This document shows positions 52,960 through 62,364 of a stretch of 64,000 nucleotides of DNA, one piece after another. A program made the position numbers and the translations under genes. Each line of letters starts with the position of its first letter. Position 1 is the first letter of the stretch. The notes beneath the pieces are model-generated. The model did not search any database, was not told where the DNA came from, and was given only the letters and a program-made list of their open reading frames with translations. This DNA is from Halobellus captivus (lineage in GTDB: Archaea > Halobacteriota > Halobacteria > Halobacteriales > Haloferacaceae), in NCBI RefSeq assembly GCF_007655485.1, contig NZ_VJXQ01000001.1, positions 999,081 through 1,063,080 on the forward strand, read 5' to 3'.

Positions 52960-53472
52960 TAGGCGGCGATACGCCGGGGGCGGGCCTAAACCTTTCGCGG
53001 TTCACTTGCGCAAATCGACGGACAACGCGCTCGTGCGCGCGAAAGAGCCATTACTAGTTACCGCAGGCCGTGTGAAACTGAATCGAGGCGCTAAGCCCCG
53101 TCCCTTGAATCGTGAATGTTCATAACCTCTTCAAGCGTCTTCGACTTCGGACAAAATCTCAGGTGCTCATAACGGTCCCAATGGGACAATCTACCTGACA
53201 AGATGTCTCATAAGACAGGGGTAACAATCAGAAATGTTCGGTTAAGCTTTCGGGTTACTTGATTATTTGTTTCGAGGGTGGTGTCAGTACTTCTATGATT
53301 CATATCCAGACCCATCCTCCAATAATTCTTGATAACGAATAACAAAGCATCGCCCCCGCTTCAATGACGCTCGGAGGTATCGCTTTATGTACTCGAAAAG
53401 TGCCACTGAAATTCGGTTGGTAATCGATGATTGCGCCCCTTGGGTGGCACTTCCCGATCTCGGAGGTGGACC
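52960..53472. other. Gene-free, less GC-rich region
   Basis: About 513 bases. From about 53090 the base composition drops clearly below the rest of the window. It contains a perfect dyad GTCCCA-A-TGGGAC (53167-53179) and no convincing gene. It continues into the atypical lipoprotein gene, so the two form one patch, possibly acquired. Confidence 0.6.
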
Positions 53473-54405
53473 GTGACACACCGACTGAATCGACGTGCAT
53501 TCGTCGCATTGACGGCGACGATCACAGCAGGCTGTTCCGGCGGCGGTGGCACCGGTGACGGTGGGGGAAGTGGTAACGACCCGGAATTCGATTCCGAAAA
53601 CGAATCACCGACACCGTCTGGCTCAATTAGCGTCCAGCAGCAGTCTGGTCAGGGAAAAGTGATACTAATCCAGTCGGCCCAAGCGAACGTCGACTACCGG
53701 TTAGTAATCGAATATGGCAGCACAGCGGTCCGTTCCGATGTGATCTCTGCTGTCGAGACATTCTCCGGGGAAGTCCCCCTCGAGACACCGATTACTGAGA
53801 GCACCTCGGTCGAGATACGCGTGGTCTCGTCCGATGACCAGGTTCTCGATTCGACGAACGTTCCCTATCAGATCCGAGCACCGGGTCCGGAGTTGAGCGC
53901 GGACGAAGCGGAGAGAATCGCCGATTCATCGTTCGGCCTAGGTGACAAGGTTCCCACCAATCGACCGTGGTCGTTCTTCGACTCCTGGCGCGATTTCCCG
54001 CTCGCTCAAGCGCACAACGGGTGGGTCGTTGACGTCAACTGGCATTCAAAACACCCGAATTATAAGAGCGATCAGCTAACCTGGGCCGAAGAAGCCGAGC
54101 AGGTGCAGAGTGTCTTCGCCGTCTACCTTTTCCGAGGCTTTCACACGAGCGACTATCAGATCTCTCGGGTTACCGTCAACGCCTTTCTCAACTCCGGTTA
54201 CGACACCGGCGGCAATCCGCAGTGGAAGCAGTCTCAACAGATCTCGATGGACCGTGAAGCCGCCGAACGAATCGACTGGTCGAATTTCGTCGACCTGTAC
54301 CGAGAGGACGTGTTTGACAACGAGACCGGTGATATGAGTCGGCTATTAGATCTCGTCTCGGAGTACAGTTTCACGTACTATGCCGATCCCGACGAGGACC
54401 GATAA
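53473..54405 (+). CDS. Tat-exported lipoprotein, unknown function
   Basis: A 310-residue secreted protein: twin arginines (LNRRAFVALTATITAGC), a lipobox TAGC at about 18-21 and a Gly/Ser-rich linker, so it should be anchored outside the membrane. The mature part is mixed beta and aromatic-rich (WSFFDSWRDFPLAQAHNGWVVDVNWHSKH), with no known domain seen. The GTG start at 53473 is set by the ribosome-binding site GGAGGTG just upstream. Codon and base use are less GC-rich than its neighbours, suggesting recent acquisition. Confidence 0.75.
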   Translation: MTHRLNRRAFVALTATITAGCSGGGGTGDGGGSGNDPEFDSENESPTPSGSISVQQQSGQGKVILIQSAQANVDYRLVIEYGSTAVRSDVISAVETFSGEVPLETPITESTSVEIRVVSSDDQVLDSTNVPYQIRAPGPELSADEAERIADSSFGLGDKVPTNRPWSFFDSWRDFPLAQAHNGWVVDVNWHSKHPNYKSDQLTWAEEAEQVQSVFAVYLFRGFHTSDYQISRVTVNAFLNSGYDTGGNPQWKQSQQISMDREAAERIDWSNFVDLYREDVFDNETGDMSRLLDLVSEYSFTYYADPDEDR

Positions 54406-54539: not shown

Positions 54540-56030
54540 CTATTCGTCCAGCCGATCGCGGAGCATCCCGTTCACGTCGCCGGGGTCGGCGCTCCCACCG
54601 GTCTTCTGCATCACCTGTCCGACGAGGAAGTTGATCGCGCCGCCCTCGCCAGCGTGGTAGTCCTCGACCGCGTCGGGGTTCTCCTCGATCGCCTCCGCGA
54701 CCGCGGTGGCGACCTCGTCGTCGTCAGCGGTTCCGAGCCCCTCGGCGTCGATAATCGCGTCGGGTTCTTCGCCCTCGTCGAGCATCCGACGGAGGACGAC
54801 CTCCTCGGCGTTCTTCGTGGTGATCTCGTCCGCCGCGACGAGTTCGACGAGTCGCGTGAATTCGTCGAGCCGATCGTCGACGTCGGTGACCTCCAGATCG
54901 CGGTAGTTGAGTTCTCCGAGGAGGTTATCCGCGACCCACGTCGCCGCCAGATCGGGATGGAACTCCTCGGCGACGTCCTCGAAGAAGTCCGCGACCTCCT
55001 TCGTCGACGTGAGCTTCGCGGCGGACTCGGCGTCGAGACCGTACTCCTCGCGGAAGCGCTCGCGGCGGGCGTCGGGGAGTTCGGGGATCGGGATCCGCTG
55101 CTTCCAGTCGGCGACTTCCAGCGGCGGGAGGTCGGCCTCGCGGAAGTAGCGGTAGTCCTTCTCCTCCTCCTTCGAGCGCATCGAGACGGTGATTCCGCGC
55201 GACTCGTCCCAGTGGCGCGTCTCCTGCTCGACCGCGCGGCCGCGCTGGACGGCGTTCTTCTGTCTGGTCACCTCGTAGGCCAGCGCCTGCTCTGCGCCCT
55301 TGTGACTGGAGATGTTCTTCACCTCCGTGCGGTTGGCCGCTTCGAGCGCGTCGGTGCCGATCGAACCGTCGTCCGCGACCTCGTCGGCCGGGACGAGCGA
55401 GATGTTGGCGTCGACGCGGAGCGAGCCGTCACGCGCGGCGTCGAAGACGCCGAGGTATTCGAGCACCTCCTCCAACTTCGCCAGGAACGCGCGGGTCTCC
55501 TTCGGACTGCGGAAGTCGGGCTCGGTGACGATCTCCATGAGCGGCGTGCCCGCGCGGTTGTAGTTGACGAGCGTGTAGTCGGCGGTGTCGATCCCGCCGC
55601 CCTTGTGCTGGAGGCTCCCGGGGTCCTCTTCGAGGTGGGCGCGCTCGATCGCGATCTCGCGCCGTTGACCCTCCACGGAGATTTCGAGGGTGCCGTCGGC
55701 GCAGATCGGGGCGTCGTACTGCGTGATCTGAAAGTTCTTCGGCAGGTCGGGGTAGTAGTAGTTCTTCCGGTGAAAGCGGGTGTGCTCGGCGACATCGGCG
55801 TCGAGCGCCTTGCCGACCTTCACGGCCGCCTCGACGGCCCCTTCGTTCAGGACGGGCAGCGCGCCGGGCAGACCGAGACAGACCGGACAAGTCCGGCTGT
55901 TGGGTTCTTCGTCTTCGCTCGATTCGGTCGAACACCCACAGAAGATCTTCGTGTCCGTCTCGAGTTGGACGTGGACCTCCAGCCCGATGACGGTGGCGAG
56001 ATCGCGCTGGGAGAGCGCTTGCGCGGTCAT
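54540..56030 (-). CDS. gatB: Asp/Glu-tRNA amidotransferase subunit B
   Basis: A 496-residue subunit of the GatCAB enzyme that converts Glu-tRNA(Gln) and Asp-tRNA(Asn) to the amidated forms. It has VIGLEVHVQLETDTKIFCGCS, the zinc-site TCPVCLGLPG, the core YYYPDLPKNFQITQYDAPI, and the C-terminal YqeY-like tail (IINFLVGQVMQKTGGSADPGDVN-type). The ATG at 56030 is chosen because CCTTTAGCC is centred about 27 bases upstream; a longer frame exists. gatA and gatC are not in the window. Confidence 0.96.
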   Translation of the reverse strand: MTAQALSQRDLATVIGLEVHVQLETDTKIFCGCSTESSEDEEPNSRTCPVCLGLPGALPVLNEGAVEAAVKVGKALDADVAEHTRFHRKNYYYPDLPKNFQITQYDAPICADGTLEISVEGQRREIAIERAHLEEDPGSLQHKGGGIDTADYTLVNYNRAGTPLMEIVTEPDFRSPKETRAFLAKLEEVLEYLGVFDAARDGSLRVDANISLVPADEVADDGSIGTDALEAANRTEVKNISSHKGAEQALAYEVTRQKNAVQRGRAVEQETRHWDESRGITVSMRSKEEEKDYRYFREADLPPLEVADWKQRIPIPELPDARRERFREEYGLDAESAAKLTSTKEVADFFEDVAEEFHPDLAATWVADNLLGELNYRDLEVTDVDDRLDEFTRLVELVAADEITTKNAEEVVLRRMLDEGEEPDAIIDAEGLGTADDDEVATAVAEAIEENPDAVEDYHAGEGGAINFLVGQVMQKTGGSADPGDVNGMLRDRLDE

Positions 56031-56154
56031 TACCGCGTGGTTCGACGTAGCGCGGCTAAAGGCTAACGGGACGGGCGGCCCGAGCTCCGCCCCCACGCGA
56101 CTGGCAGCGGAGGAAGCGAAACCTATTCCGCATCACCGAGAGACCCCACAGCCG

Positions 56155-57021
56155 ATGCTCGCTGCTCTCGCCGACGCCGTCGGGATCGACGTCCGCCGCG
56201 GGGTGTCGTTTGCGACGCCCGCTTCCGAGGGCGACGCCACCGGACCCCTCCGCCTGGACCTCTATCGGCCCGGCGGCGACGCCGATTCGAACGCGTCGCC
56301 GCAGCGCGCGGCCGTCGTCCTCCTCGCGGGAGACCGGTGGCGGGCGGTCGAACGCGGCGAACTGGCCCCCTACGCGCTCGATCTCGCCGAACGGGGCTAC
56401 GTCTGCGTCGTCCCGGAGTACCGCGGCAGCGACGCGGCCGCGTTTCCGGCCCAGCTTCAGGACGTAATAGCCGCGATCCGGTGGGTGCAGGCCGCGAGCG
56501 ACGCCATCGACGTCGATCCCGACCGAATCGGCGCGTTCGGGCACGACGCTGGCGCGCACCTGGCCGTGTTGGCCGCACTGACCACGGAGGCGGACGCTGC
56601 CGGAGGAGATCAGGGGCGCTCTCGACCCGCGCCCGCGACCGACGCACTCGCCGCCGTCGTCGGCGTCGGCGGGACGTACGCGCTCGAACACGAACCAGAA
56701 CGTCCGGATCTGAACGCGTTCCTCGGCGGCGACCGGGAGTCGAAGCCGGACGTCTGGAACCGGGCGTCGCCGTCGACGTATCTCGACGAGAGGGGACGCG
56801 GTGGCGCTCTCGGCGACGCGCCGCCGATCCTCCTGCTCCACGGCGAGGACGACGACGTCGCACCGGCGATGGCCTCGGAGCTGTTTCACGACTTACTGGA
56901 GGAACGCGACCTCCCCGCCGAATGCGTCGTCGCGTCCGGAGCCGGTCACGACGTCCACGAGACGCACCGGGAGTTCACGTTCGGCTGGGCCGAGGGGTTC
57001 TTCGACCGGCATCTCAGGTGA
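56155..57021 (+). CDS. Alpha/beta hydrolase with Asp in place of the nucleophile Ser
   Basis: A 288-residue alpha/beta hydrolase of the esterase/lipase (BD-FAE-like) type. The nucleophile elbow, normally GHSAG, reads GHDAG (129-133) so the nucleophile is Asp131. The oxyanion-hole region, normally HGGGW, reads AGDRW (58-62). The later acidic residue (LLLHGEDDDVAP) and histidine (ASGAGHDVHE) are present. It may be an Asp-nucleophile enzyme (as in dehalogenases and epoxide hydrolases) or a non-catalytic relative. The ATG fits ACCTATTC about 28 bases upstream. The start is divergent from gatB. Confidence 0.8.
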   Translation: MLAALADAVGIDVRRGVSFATPASEGDATGPLRLDLYRPGGDADSNASPQRAAVVLLAGDRWRAVERGELAPYALDLAERGYVCVVPEYRGSDAAAFPAQLQDVIAAIRWVQAASDAIDVDPDRIGAFGHDAGAHLAVLAALTTEADAAGGDQGRSRPAPATDALAAVVGVGGTYALEHEPERPDLNAFLGGDRESKPDVWNRASPSTYLDERGRGGALGDAPPILLLHGEDDDVAPAMASELFHDLLEERDLPAECVVASGAGHDVHETHREFTFGWAEGFFDRHLR

Positions 57022-57160
57022 CGTCGAAACGAGCCGACCGCTGATTCGACGCCGAACGCAGGCCTCGATGCCAACTGCAGACTTCGATGTCGACCAATTA
57101 TCACTTTCCGGGTAGATGTCTGACGTACGTTTATGTGGCCGGAGGCGGGCTATCTACGCT

Positions 57161-57610
57161 ATGAGCAACCGTGTGGAGGAGCTGGAATCGAAGGTCGCGG
57201 AGCTACAGGCCGCTGTCAACGGGCTGACTGAAGAGCTCGTCGAGACGAAAGAGCGCGTTCGGCTTCTGGAAGAGGAGGTCGAAGTCGACCTCGCCGCGGG
57301 AAGCCGACCGGTCGGTTACGGGACGCCAGAAGCCGAGGAAGCCGACGGACAGGCCGACGAGGCGGAGTCCGTCGGGGAGCGCGAGCAGGCCGCCAGCACC
57401 CACGAGGAGCCGCCCGCACAGGCGGAATCGCGCCGGGAGACCTCCGCACAGCAGTCCGACGACGCCGACTTCATCGACGCCGACGCCGACGAGGGGCTGG
57501 TGGGCGGCTCGAACAGCGAACCCGACTCGCAGGGCGACGAGACTAAGGCGGACGAGAGTGAGGGAGACGACGAGGCGGCGACCGAAGGCGACGATATCAT
57601 CGTCGCGTAA
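57161..57610 (+). CDS. Small coiled-coil protein upstream of smc
   Basis: A 149-residue protein: a coiled-coil N-terminus (about 2-45, SNRVEELESKVAELQAAVNGLTEELVETKERVRLLEEEVEV) and a disordered acidic tail with many Glu, Asp, Gln and Ser, ending DDIIVA. It lies 29 bases before smc on the same strand, so it is likely co-transcribed and may belong to the chromosome-structuring complex (inferred). TTTATGTG is centred about 27 bases before the ATG. Confidence 0.7.
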   Translation: MSNRVEELESKVAELQAAVNGLTEELVETKERVRLLEEEVEVDLAAGSRPVGYGTPEAEEADGQADEAESVGEREQAASTHEEPPAQAESRRETSAQQSDDADFIDADADEGLVGGSNSEPDSQGDETKADESEGDDEAATEGDDIIVA

Positions 57611-57639: not shown

Positions 57640-60600
57640 ATGCACATCAAAGAGCTCGTCCTTGACGGATTCAAAAGCTTCGGGCGGACCACGGAGATTC
57701 CGTTCTACGAGGACTTCACGGTCGTCACCGGACCGAACGGCTCCGGTAAGTCGAACATCATCGACGGCGTGCTGTTCGCGCTCGGCTTGGCGCGAACGCG
57801 CGGCATCCGCGCGGAGAAACTAACGGACCTGATTTACAACCCGGGCCACGCCGACGGAAGCGACGAAGACGGCGGGACCAGCGGCCCGAGGGAGGCGACC
57901 GTCACGGTCGTTCTCGACAACGGCGACGGGACGCTCGATCGCTCGCAGGTCGTCAACGCCGCCGGGAGCGACGACGTCGGCGACGTCTCCGAGGTTCGCG
58001 TCAAGCGGCGCGTGAAGGAGACCGAGGACAACTACTATTCGTATTACTACCTCAACGGGCGCGCCTGCAACCTCTCGGATATCCAGGACCTCCTGGGGCA
58101 GGCGGGAATCACCCCCGAGGGCTACAACGTCGTGATGCAGGGCGACGTCACCGAGATCATCAATATGACCGCCTATCAGCGGCGGGGAATCATCGACGAG
58201 ATCGCGGGCGTCGCCGAGTTCGACGCGAAGAAGGAGGACGCCTTCGAGGAACTCGACGCAGTCGAAGCCCGGATCGAGGAGGCCGACCTCCGGATCGAGG
58301 AGAAGGCCGATCGACTCACCCAGCTCGAGGACGAGCGCGAGACCGCCCTCGAGTACCAGTCGCTCCGCGAGGAGCGCGAGGAGTACGAGAGCTACCAGAA
58401 GGCAGCGGAACTCGAGGACAAACGAGACGACCTCGAATCGACGAGAGCGCGGGTCGAGAAGCGGGAGTCGAAGCTCGCCGAGCACAGAGCGGAACTCGAC
58501 CGCCGCCAGGGTCGCGTCAGTCGACTCGAAGACGAGCTCGGGGAGCTAACGAAAGAGATCGAGCGAAAGGGCGAGGACGAACAGCTCCGGATCAAATCGG
58601 AGATCGAGGCGGTCAAAGGCGAGATCGACCGCGTCGAGAACGCGATCGAAGCCGCCGAGGAGCGGATCGACGACGCCGAGAGCGAGCGGCGGAACGCGTT
58701 CGTCCAACTCGACCGAAAGCAGGAGGAGATCGACGAACTCGACGAAGAGATCCGATCTGTCAAGGTCGAGAAGGCGTCCGTGAAATCGGATATCGGCTCG
58801 TTGCAGACGGACGTAGCGCAGGTACAGGCCGAGATCGACGACGTCGACACCGAATACGACGAGCTGAAAGCCGAACTGAACGAGAAGAAAGCGCGGCTCG
58901 AAGCGCTGAAGTCCGAGAAGAACGAGCACCAGCGCGAGAAGGACCGCCTCCTCGACGAAACGCGGCGGCGGGCGAGCGAAATCTCGGACGCCGAGGAATC
59001 GATCGAAGAGCTCCGCGCGACGATTCCCGATCTGAAGGCCGAGGTGTCAGACCTCCACTCCGAACTCGACAAAGCCGAGAAGAACGAATCGAAGATCGAG
59101 TCAGTCGTCGAGGATCTCCGCGAGGAGCGGAGCGAGTTGAAAGCGGACCTCGACGCGGTCGTCGAGGAGATCCAATCGAAGCAATCGGAGTACGCCACGC
59201 TCGAAGCCCGCGCGGGCGACGACGGCGACAACTCCTGGCCGCGAGCGGTCACGACGATCAAGAACGCCGGTCTGTCGGGCGTCCACGGGACCGTCGGCGA
59301 ACTGGGCTCCGTCGACGGCGAGTACGCGAGCGCCTGTGAAACGGCCGCTGGCGGCCGACTCGCGCACGTCATCGTCGACGACGACAGCGTCGGCTCCGAC
59401 TGTATCGACCACCTCAAGTCCCGAAACGCCGGGCGGGCGACGTTCCTCCCGATCACGAAGATGGAGGACCGCGGGCTCCCGCGGCTCCCGGACCACCCCG
59501 GCGTCGTCGACTTCGCGCGCAATCTCGTTGACTACGACGCGCAGTACGACTCCGTCTTCTCGTACGTGTTGGGTTCGACGCTCGTCGTCGAGGATATGCA
59601 AACGGCTCGCGATCTGATGGGCGACTACCGGATGGTGACGCTCGACGGCGATTTGATCGAGCGCTCGGGCGCGATGACGGGCGGATCCGGCGGCGGCTCG
59701 CGCTACTCCTTCTCGAAGTCCGGCGGCGGACGGCTCGAACGGCTCGCCGAAGAGATTTCCGAGCTCGAAGATCGCCGCCGGACCCTTCAGGCCGAGATCC
59801 GCGAGAAGGAAGAGGACATCGAGGACGCCCGAAGCCGCGCCTCCGACGCCCGCGACCGGGTCCGCTCGCTCGAATCCGACGTCGAAGACGCCGAGGAAGC
59901 CGTCGCAGAGGCCGAAGGCGAAATCGACGCCCTCGAGAGCGAGATCGAACGGCTCCGCGAGAAGCGCGCGGAAGTCGACGGGGAGATGCGGGAGATCGAC
60001 GAGGAGATCGACGCGGTCGACGCCGATATTTCCGACGTCCGAACGGAGATCGACGAGCTCGAAGGGGAGCTCGCGGACTCGAAGATCCCCGAGCTGACGG
60101 CGAAGGCCGACGAAATCCGCGCCGACATCGAGGAGAAAGAAGGCCGGATGGACGACCTCGACGGTCGGCTGAACGAACTCCAACTCCAGCGGCAGTACGC
60201 CGAGGAATCGGTCGACGACTTAGAGGAGACGATCGAGACCGCACAGGAGAAGAAGGCAGACGCGCGCGATGCGATCCGCGAGAAGCGATCCGAGATCGAA
60301 GAGAAAGAGGAGACGCTCGAAGCGAAACACGAGGCCGTCGAGGCGCTCGAAGAGGAACTCGCGGAGCTGAAAGCCGAGCGTTCCGACCTTCAGGAAACGC
60401 TACGAGAGGCCAAAAGCGAGCGCGACGAGAAGCGCGAGGCGGTCGATCGGATCGAATCGAAGCTCGGTTCGCTCCGCGACAGCGTCGAGCGGCTCTCCTG
60501 GGAAATCGACGAACTGGAGGCCGAGGTCGGCGAGTACGACCCCGAGGACGTCCCCGACCACGACGAGGTCGAAGCCGAGATCGAGCGCCTTTCGTCCGAA

Positions 60601-61269
60601 ATGGAGGCGCTCGAACCCGTGAATATGCTCGCGATCGACGAGTACGACGAGGTGAGCGCGGACCTCGACGACCTCCGGGAGCGTCGCGACGTCCTCGTCG
60701 ACGAGCGCGACGCCATCGAGGAGCGGATCGATCGCTTCGAGGCGCAGAAGAAGGAGACGTTCATGAACGCCTTCGACGCGATCAACGAGAACTTCACCGA
60801 GATCTTCGAGCGGCTCTCCGACGGGACCGGCGAACTCCACCTCGAAAACCCCGACGATCCGTTCGAGGACGGGCTGACGATGAAGGCCCAGCCCGGCGAC
60901 AAGCCCATCCAGCGGCTGAACGCTATGTCCGGCGGGGAGAAGTCGCTGACGGCGCTCGCGTTCATCTTCGCGATCCAGCGGCACAACCCCGCGCCGTTCT
61001 ACGCGCTCGACGAGATCGACGCGTTCCTCGACGCCGCCAACGCCGAGCGCGTCGGCGAGATGGTCGACGACCTCTCGGGTGACGCCCAGTTCGTCGTCGT
61101 CTCGCACCGCTCGGCGCTCTTAGAGCGCTCCGAACGCGCCATCGGCGTGACGATGCAGGGCGACAACGTCAGCGCCGTCACCGGGATCCAGTTGGGCGAC
61201 GGCGCGTCGGGATCGGGTGGCGGAGACGACCCCGACGGAGAGGGAGCGGAGGTTCCCGCGGATGACTAA
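57640..61269 (+). CDS. smc: Chromosome segregation / condensation protein Smc
   Basis: A 1209-residue SMC ATPase that shapes and segregates the chromosome. It has an N-terminal Walker A (GPNGSGKSNIIDGV, near residue 35), two long coiled-coil arms (about 165-500 and 680-1020) and a hinge at about 520-660 (GVHGTVGELGSVDGEY...). The C-terminal head carries the signature LNAMSGGEKSLTALAF and Walker B/D-loop FYALDEIDAFLDAANAERV. The end is Gly/Asp-rich. It is the middle gene of the smc-scpA unit. Confidence 0.97.
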   Translation: MHIKELVLDGFKSFGRTTEIPFYEDFTVVTGPNGSGKSNIIDGVLFALGLARTRGIRAEKLTDLIYNPGHADGSDEDGGTSGPREATVTVVLDNGDGTLDRSQVVNAAGSDDVGDVSEVRVKRRVKETEDNYYSYYYLNGRACNLSDIQDLLGQAGITPEGYNVVMQGDVTEIINMTAYQRRGIIDEIAGVAEFDAKKEDAFEELDAVEARIEEADLRIEEKADRLTQLEDERETALEYQSLREEREEYESYQKAAELEDKRDDLESTRARVEKRESKLAEHRAELDRRQGRVSRLEDELGELTKEIERKGEDEQLRIKSEIEAVKGEIDRVENAIEAAEERIDDAESERRNAFVQLDRKQEEIDELDEEIRSVKVEKASVKSDIGSLQTDVAQVQAEIDDVDTEYDELKAELNEKKARLEALKSEKNEHQREKDRLLDETRRRASEISDAEESIEELRATIPDLKAEVSDLHSELDKAEKNESKIESVVEDLREERSELKADLDAVVEEIQSKQSEYATLEARAGDDGDNSWPRAVTTIKNAGLSGVHGTVGELGSVDGEYASACETAAGGRLAHVIVDDDSVGSDCIDHLKSRNAGRATFLPITKMEDRGLPRLPDHPGVVDFARNLVDYDAQYDSVFSYVLGSTLVVEDMQTARDLMGDYRMVTLDGDLIERSGAMTGGSGGGSRYSFSKSGGGRLERLAEEISELEDRRRTLQAEIREKEEDIEDARSRASDARDRVRSLESDVEDAEEAVAEAEGEIDALESEIERLREKRAEVDGEMREIDEEIDAVDADISDVRTEIDELEGELADSKIPELTAKADEIRADIEEKEGRMDDLDGRLNELQLQRQYAEESVDDLEETIETAQEKKADARDAIREKRSEIEEKEETLEAKHEAVEALEEELAELKAERSDLQETLREAKSERDEKREAVDRIESKLGSLRDSVERLSWEIDELEAEVGEYDPEDVPDHDEVEAEIERLSSEMEALEPVNMLAIDEYDEVSADLDDLRERRDVLVDERDAIEERIDRFEAQKKETFMNAFDAINENFTEIFERLSDGTGELHLENPDDPFEDGLTMKAQPGDKPIQRLNAMSGGEKSLTALAFIFAIQRHNPAPFYALDEIDAFLDAANAERVGEMVDDLSGDAQFVVVSHRSALLERSERAIGVTMQGDNVSAVTGIQLGDGASGSGGGDDPDGEGAEVPADD

Positions 61270-61284: not shown

Positions 61285-62364
61285 ATGACTGATTCCGCCG
61301 GATCGTCGCCGCCGAGCGGTGAACCCGCCGGATCGCCCGCGACCGGCGAGTCGCTCATCGGTCAGGGCGGCACCGGCGGTCCGCCACCGGTGAACGGCTC
61401 CGGCACCGACGAGGACGAGGTCGAGCCGGTCGAACTGCTCGTGCAGTTGGCCGAAGACGGCGAGATCGATCCCTGGGACGTCGACCTCGTCGCCGCGACA
61501 GACGCCTTCCTCGACGCGCTCGATGAGACCGACCTCCGGACGTCGGGTCGGGCGCTCTTTTACGCCGCCGTCCTCCTGCGGATGAAGAGCGACGCGCTCT
61601 TGGCACCCGACGAGGAGGATGAGGAGGAGGAACTGAAACCGTGGGAGGCCGCGCTCGAACGCGGCGGACCGATCGCCGAGGGTGGCGCAGACGGCGAGAC
61701 CGCCGGGCCGGGGTTCGATCCGATCGACACGCTCGAAGCGGAGATGGACCGTCGACTCGAACGCAAGGACGCCCGCGGATCGCCCGAAACGCTCGATGAA
61801 CTCGTCCGCGAACTCAGAGAGGCCGAGCGGCAGTCGTGGTGGAAGCGCCGCCGCGAGTACGACACCTCGAACTCGCCGCGCGGGCACAGTCGCGGCACCC
61901 AGACGCTCGATTACCGCTCGGCCGACGAGTTTCGAGAGGCGGACGAGCCGACCGCCGCGGACGTCACCGGAACCGCCCACAGCGAGGACATCGAGACGTC
62001 GATTGCGTCCGTGCGCGAGGCCGTTTCCGTCCACTACGACAACGGCCGCGAAGAGGTGCTGTTCGCCGAGATCAAAGACGCCGCGGAGACGCCGGTAACG
62101 ACGTACCTCGCGCTCCTGTTTCTCGCACATCGAGGCGAGTTCACGCTCCAACAGGACGACCTGTTCGGCGACCTCTGGATCCGGAGCCCGGACGCGGGGG
62201 TCGACGACGAGTCGTCCGACGTAGAAGGGGAGGAGGAGGCAGAGGGGAACGTCGAGGAAGGGGCGGAGACGGATGAAGACGACGGGGCGGACGAGAACGT
62301 CGAGGAAGCGGTCGAGGAGGAGAGCGTCGAGGAGGCCGTCGTTCCGGCCGCTGACGACGACTGA
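61285..62364 (+). CDS. scpA: Kleisin, segregation and condensation protein A
   Basis: A 359-residue kleisin that links the two SMC heads. The N-terminal domain (about 45-120) has the family pattern VELLVQLAEDGEIDPWDVDLVAATDAFLDAL followed by LFYAAVLLRMKSDALLAPDEEDEEEE. The C-terminal winged-helix domain (about 230-300, SIASVREAVSVHYDNGREEVLF) should touch the Smc head. The last 50 residues are acidic. Start at ATG 61285, directly after GGAGGTG, 15 bases past the smc stop, so it is translationally coupled. Confidence 0.93.
   Translation: MTDSAGSSPPSGEPAGSPATGESLIGQGGTGGPPPVNGSGTDEDEVEPVELLVQLAEDGEIDPWDVDLVAATDAFLDALDETDLRTSGRALFYAAVLLRMKSDALLAPDEEDEEEELKPWEAALERGGPIAEGGADGETAGPGFDPIDTLEAEMDRRLERKDARGSPETLDELVRELREAERQSWWKRRREYDTSNSPRGHSRGTQTLDYRSADEFREADEPTAADVTGTAHSEDIETSIASVREAVSVHYDNGREEVLFAEIKDAAETPVTTYLALLFLAHRGEFTLQQDDLFGDLWIRSPDAGVDDESSDVEGEEEAEGNVEEGAETDEDDGADENVEEAVEEESVEEAVVPAADDD

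Follow-up and report, generated by a model that had tools for sequence, protein, structure and literature searches.

Non-catalytic alpha/beta hydrolases are an already known kind of protein. NDRG3 is described as having an alpha/beta-hydrolase fold in which the triad is replaced by non-reactive residues and the path to the site is blocked (PMC7022630), and the gibberellin receptor GID1 is considered to have arisen from hormone-sensitive lipases that lost the active-site His (PMC3531792). BD-FAE is reported with Ser128, Asp237 and His269, the oxyanion hole being formed by Gly53 and Ser128 (PMC8165983). Ligand contacts given for the haloalkane dehalogenase 1BE0 are D124 and W125 (PMC7034887), and an HGXP motif is reported for epoxide hydrolases (PMC7538969).

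The protein analysed here is encoded in a window of 64,000 nucleotides from Halobellus captivus (the whole stretch of DNA under study). With the BD-FAE-type esterases of PF20434 (the carbohydrate esterase 6tkx/6xyc, Lip_vut4 6nkf and Thermogutta Est2 5ao9/7bfn) it has in common the fold, most of the length and the positions of the catalytic Asp and His. In contrast to BD-FAE as described in PMC8165983, the counterpart of the nucleophile Ser128 is missing in 11 of the 16 orthologues at this locus, and of these 11 non-Ser orthologues only two retain Gly60, the second glycine of the oxyanion hole. The replacement of essential catalytic residues on an old hydrolase fold is reminiscent of the NDRG family as characterized in PMC7022630; NDRG3, however, lost the whole triad, whereas the locus proteins retain Asp and usually His, and the NDRG proteins are eukaryotic and distant. 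In GID1, according to PMC3531792, the His disappeared and the Ser remained, whereas in the non-Ser proteins of the locus the Ser is gone and the His mostly present. An elbow Asp is the likeness to haloalkane dehalogenases and epoxide hydrolases; it is confined to four species, that of the window among them, and is not conserved among the orthologues, and the aligned motifs contain neither a W at residue 132 nor HGXP in any of the 11 non-Ser orthologues. Among the open-licence papers listed in a literature search, none dealt with a nucleophile-less BD-FAE, an archaeal BD-FAE pseudoenzyme clade or this Halobellus protein.

Family, fold and synteny

The 288 aa frame contains no internal stop, and its translation reproduced both motifs pointed out in the initial annotation, GHDAG at residues 129-133 and AGDRW at residues 58-62 (Table 1). 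By sequence and fold the protein is a BD-FAE-type alpha/beta hydrolase. It matches Pfam BD-FAE PF20434 with 105.5 bits (E 3.6e-30, residues 46-247, cut-off 26.8), and the cut-off is exceeded at the same locus in all nine genus members having the gene. The AlphaFold2 model, obtained with a 12-row alignment, has a mean pLDDT of 83.7 and a pTM of 0.86, and the VIA structure comparison aligned it with 6nkf (Z 32.4, rmsd 4.5, 268 aligned), 6xyc (Z 30.2, rmsd 2.5, 257 aligned) and 6tkx (Z 29.8, rmsd 3.0, 264 aligned). Its closest matches among solved structures are deposited as lipase, carbohydrate esterase or esterase; dehalogenases and epoxide hydrolases are absent among the 28 PDB sequence matches and the VIA matches listed, which we do not count as a test. 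As regards the large helical cap domain with substrate-activating residues that marks haloalkane dehalogenases and epoxide hydrolases, the model appears to have short helices only between strands 167-171 and 225-230.

Across 170 genomes of the family, a search with a match threshold of E <= 1e-20 gave matches in 22, and in 16 of them the best match is syntenic: nine of the 17 genomes of the window's genus (g1), two of genus g7 and five of genus g44. The locus order topA, gatB, the gene, DUF7518, smc, scpA and mtnP is common to these 16 genomes of three genera, as verified in 15 fetched regions and the window, and the gene is co-oriented with DUF7518-smc in 16 of 16. The relative found in G021 is located elsewhere. 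Eight of the 17 genus genomes have no match; gatB adjoins the DUF7518 gene in the seven genus genomes without the gene that were inspected for the empty site (L091-L097), where tblastn at E <= 1e-2 detected no remnant. G002 has no smc match at 1e-60.

A second copy with Ser is present in both g7 genomes and in all five of g44 (copy comparison across genera at BLAST E <= 1e-15). The window's genus shows no second match at E <= 1e-20 in 17 genomes, split pieces of the same gene aside, so a close active paralogue is unavailable there, and a role as partner of an active paralogue was rejected on the same ground. More distant PF20434 proteins are present in the genus.

Table 1. Coordinates of the gene, its key residues and the conserved neighbours in the window
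Feature	Position	Strand	Basis
Pseudoenzyme candidate, 288 aa, BD-FAE-type alpha/beta hydrolase fold	56155-57021	+	Open frame, PF20434, orthologues in 15 other genomes, AlphaFold2 model
Codon of residue 131 (nucleophile position), GAC = Asp	56545-56547	+	Coordinate from residue number; Ser in 75/75 relatives outside locus
AGDRW, residues 58-62, in place of oxyanion-hole motif HGGGW	56326-56340	+	Residues 58, 60, 61 variable in non-Ser group
Asp233, catalytic-acid counterpart	56851-56853	+	Retained in 16/16 orthologues
His265, catalytic-base counterpart	56947-56949	+	Retained in 15/16 orthologues; Arg in G011
His268	56956-56958	+	Invariant in 11/11 non-Ser orthologues; Leu in 5/5 Ser orthologues
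Promoter-like BRE/TATA element GCGAAAC CTATTC, 28-31 nt upstream of ATG	56116-56128	+	Aligned upstream regions of 16 genomes; function inferred
gatB, divergent neighbour, synteny conserved	54540-56030	-	16-genome synteny
DUF7518 protein, downstream neighbour, synteny conserved	57161-57610	+	16-genome synteny
smc, synteny conserved	57640-61269	+	16-genome synteny
scpA, synteny conserved	61285-62364	+	16-genome synteny

Nucleophile elbow and surrounding residues

The elbow residue of the 16 syntenic orthologues is Asp in four, Gly in four, Ala in three and Ser in five. Asp (GAC) is found in G000, the window's species, and in G005, G007 and G009, Gly (GGC or GGA) in G011, G013, G014 and G015, and Ala (GCT or GCC) in G006, G022 and G113; Ser (TCG) occurs in 5/5 g44 proteins, which also retain HGGGW, Asp and His. 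The triad is thus intact in one genus, a second has Ala, and the third has Ala, Gly and Asp. The relatives were collected at BLAST E <= 1e-12, with proteins sharing identical last 100 residues dropped and the weaker matches listed fetched in part (the given loci and 32 further regions). Among 91 distinct relatives including the window's protein, 80 have Ser and 11 do not, and all 11 lie at this locus. The non-Ser elbow is beyond chance, because Ser is invariable in the distinct relatives found outside the locus (75 of 75). None of the nine closest homologues, i.e., the eight other genus members and G113, carries Ser, so the outcome named in the initial annotation as refuting its reading, Ser in every close homologue, did not occur.

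The initial annotation had stated that the change from Ser to Asp needs more than one base change and does not reflect a sequencing error. Both statements hold, since the elbow codon is GAC here and TCG in the Ser orthologues, and since three further species carry Asp at the same position. Alignment of the homologues placed Asp in just 4 of the 11 non-Ser orthologues, the rest having Gly or Ala. Because these other residues occur as well, and a Gly protein without the catalytic His is nested in the Asp group, the alignment indicates that Asp is one of several replacements and not a conserved new nucleophile. The Ala, Gly and Asp codons differ pairwise at the second base only, the third base being disregarded, and the living relatives therefore show possible steps towards Asp.

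The loss extends beyond the elbow. Outside the locus, the Ser relatives show no variation at residues 59, 60, 89, 90, 103, 129, 131, 132 and 133 (75/75 each), at residue 233 (74/74) or at residue 265 (73/73), and all but one have Gly65 (74/75). The 11 non-Ser proteins keep Ser131 in no case, Gly60 in two, Gly65 in two, Ala132 in eight and His265 in ten, together with Gly59, Tyr89, Arg90, Asp103, Gly129, Gly133 and Asp233 in all 11. Residue 60 is D, N, S, R or G in this group. The variation at residues 131, 60 and 65 shows that one and the same group was freed from constraint at the nucleophile and in the oxyanion loop, whereas its structural glycines and Asp-His side were preserved. The two g7 proteins retain Gly60 and Gly65 in the aligned motifs, so their oxyanion loop is nearly intact, and G011 combines Gly at the elbow with Arg replacing His265.

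Only four columns, Tyr89, Gly126, Ala263 and His268, are invariant in the 11 with a residue absent from the five Ser proteins of the locus, and they include no new Ser, Cys or Asp that could be a replacement nucleophile. A further 28 residues, among them Asp163, Glu178, Pro181, Ser207, Met239, Cys257, Val267 and Trp278, are invariant in 16/16 locus proteins and occur in less than 35% of the 75 relatives, which means that the locus has constraints of its own, common to its Ser and non-Ser members.

History, selection and possible function

The gene tree was built without the elbow columns, and the species tree is based on gatB and topA plus the initial part of smc. In the gene tree the 16 locus proteins form one clade (100/99), within which G000, G005, G007, G009 and G011 group together (91/89), as do G007, G009 and G011 (99/95); the species tree contains the same two groups (96/92 and 100/99). 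The Gly protein of G011 is nested inside the Asp group in both trees. The AU test of the four Asp proteins as one clade gave p 0.0458, a borderline value for a group named after the tree was seen, and we consequently give weight to the position of G011 in the two trees and not to this test. The g7 proteins, which have Ala, join the Ser proteins of g44 strongly in the species tree (99/97) and weakly in the gene tree (82/54), where a single clade of the non-Ser proteins of g1 and g7 was not rejected (AU p 0.369). Judging from these trees, the Ser was most likely lost once or twice, one loss being favoured because His268 is common to g1 and g7, and two because the species tree joins g7 with g44.

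The gene has remained under purifying selection since the Ser was lost. By the Nei-Gojobori method, dN/dS in the 36 within-genus pairs ranged from 0.24 (G013-G006) to 0.42 (G000-G007), in the three closest species (G007, G009 and G011) from 0.26 to 0.35, and in the Ser genus g44 from 0.14 to 0.32 over 10 pairs. The frame is free of internal stops in all nine genus members. In simulations of neutral drift, matched to the third-position divergence seen in 4 of the 36 within-genus pairs, 0-3 of 1000 sequences lacked a stop and the mean protein identity dropped to 0.32-0.47; the real proteins are 0.73-0.81 identical.

Our analysis establishes loss of the nucleophile with varied replacements, spread over two genera and accompanied by purifying selection. 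We consider it likely that the esterase-shaped protein is catalytically dead and kept by selection for another job, i.e., that it is a pseudoenzyme. Two marks of a pseudoenzyme are present: the fold is kept (pLDDT 83.7, Z of about 30 to esterases) with Ser lost in 11 orthologues, and selection persisted after the loss. The claim in the initial annotation that the usual serine-esterase chemistry is not possible is supported by the absence of Ser131 and the altered oxyanion loop, and the non-enzymatic role it offered as an option appears the best supported one, given an elbow that is not conserved, an oxyanion loop that is not conserved in the genus and a frame under selection. The ancestor at the locus would have been a BD-FAE-type serine esterase of the usual kind; on the way to the present protein, the nucleophile and the oxyanion loop were lost, and the fold, the promoter and a number of residues specific to the clade would have been retained. 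Covalent hydrolysis would be gone, and the protein may instead bind a small molecule or a partner protein, possibly in the former active-site cleft with the retained Asp-His side and the new His268, or alternatively on the conserved C-terminal face (helix 240-250, strand 255-260 and the last helix). The elbow Asp of the window's species is probably a late replacement via Ala or Gly and would not be required in the group.

Two observations speak against a pseudoenzyme. Asp233 (16/16) and His265 (15/16) are retained, although a protein with a purely structural role could do without them, and the invariance of His268 in the non-Ser group (11/11) could mean residual or new chemistry. On account of these three residues the main rival is a nucleophile-independent enzyme, in which Asp233-His265, perhaps together with His268, would serve as general base/acid in a non-covalent reaction such as that of a lyase or isomerase or direct water activation. 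We regard this as unlikely, since G011 has Arg at 265 and yet an intact and constrained frame, the oxyanion loop varies at residue 60, and the His-Asp pair may persist only from descent. A decaying gene on its way to loss and devoid of present function would fit the absence of a match in 8/17 genus genomes and a catalytic site that drifts freely, but has hardly any probability in view of nine out of nine uninterrupted frames, dN/dS well below 1, a promoter-like element that is kept and a neutral simulation that predicts stops and far lower identity.

Haloalkane dehalogenases and epoxide hydrolases share the elbow motif GHD-x-G, which GHDAG resembles, and the Asp species (G000, G005, G007 and G009) lie close together in the tree. 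The initial annotation proposed dehalogenase- or epoxide-hydrolase-like chemistry; on this reading, Asp131 would attack a substrate carbon in the manner of these enzymes. The proposal was not borne out: it founders on the non-conservation of Asp among the orthologues, most clearly on G011, which has Gly inside the Asp group and Arg for the His. In addition, residue 132 is Ala and not the equivalent of W125, given beside D124 for 1BE0 (PMC7034887), and the HGXP motif reported for epoxide hydrolases (PMC7538969) is absent, which makes an Asp-nucleophile hydrolase very improbable. A GxDxG elbow Asp alone is thus no sign of dehalogenase or epoxide-hydrolase chemistry, and the automatic names alpha/beta hydrolase or esterase would mislead for the proteins of this locus.

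Taken together, the 16 syntenic proteins are a natural series in which one can test directly how catalysis disappears from an esterase fold and what preserves the fold thereafter. By analogy with GID1, we further speculate that an smc-adjacent esterase was made nucleophile-less independently in two haloarchaeal genera and that its cleft was rebuilt around Asp-His and His268 as a ligand sensor or non-covalent catalyst, an archaeal analogue of the lipase-to-receptor route. This scenario is rather unlikely as it stands; if it were true, a living sister genus with an intact triad would be available for comparison.

Upstream elements and neighbouring frames

The promoter-like element upstream of the gene has identical spacing in 9/9 genus members, four of which vary in its BRE-like part or last bases; a related element is found in g7 and, with different spacing, in g44. 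Its position about 28-31 nt upstream at fixed spacing supports the start codon. In view of what is established on haloarchaeal promoters, it would fit the BRE/TATA box of a leaderless transcript. A sigma-70 scan, which is unsuited to archaea, yielded a single terminator-like site (minus strand; 0.5 expected) and nothing promoter-like.

Another element, TGTCTGACGTACGTTTATGT at 57116-57160, immediately precedes the DUF7518-smc cluster; it hardly differs among the three genera and occurs in a close form also in genus genomes without the esterase gene (G008, G010 and G012). Such strong conservation suggests a promoter or operator that serves the smc cluster. A reading frame called from 57116 (57116-57610) overlaps the element; the conserved start MSNRVEELE at 57161 leads into the DUF7518 protein. 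An operon with smc was rejected and we claim no functional tie to smc, because the gene and DUF7518-smc each have their own conserved promoter-like element.

Between topA and gatB, the window contains a lipoprotein-like frame on the plus strand (53431-54405) that has no Pfam or NCBIfam match. By eye, its start combines twin-arginine and lipobox-like features, and the frame is present at the same place in one of the 15 other genomes, G005, with 92% identity.
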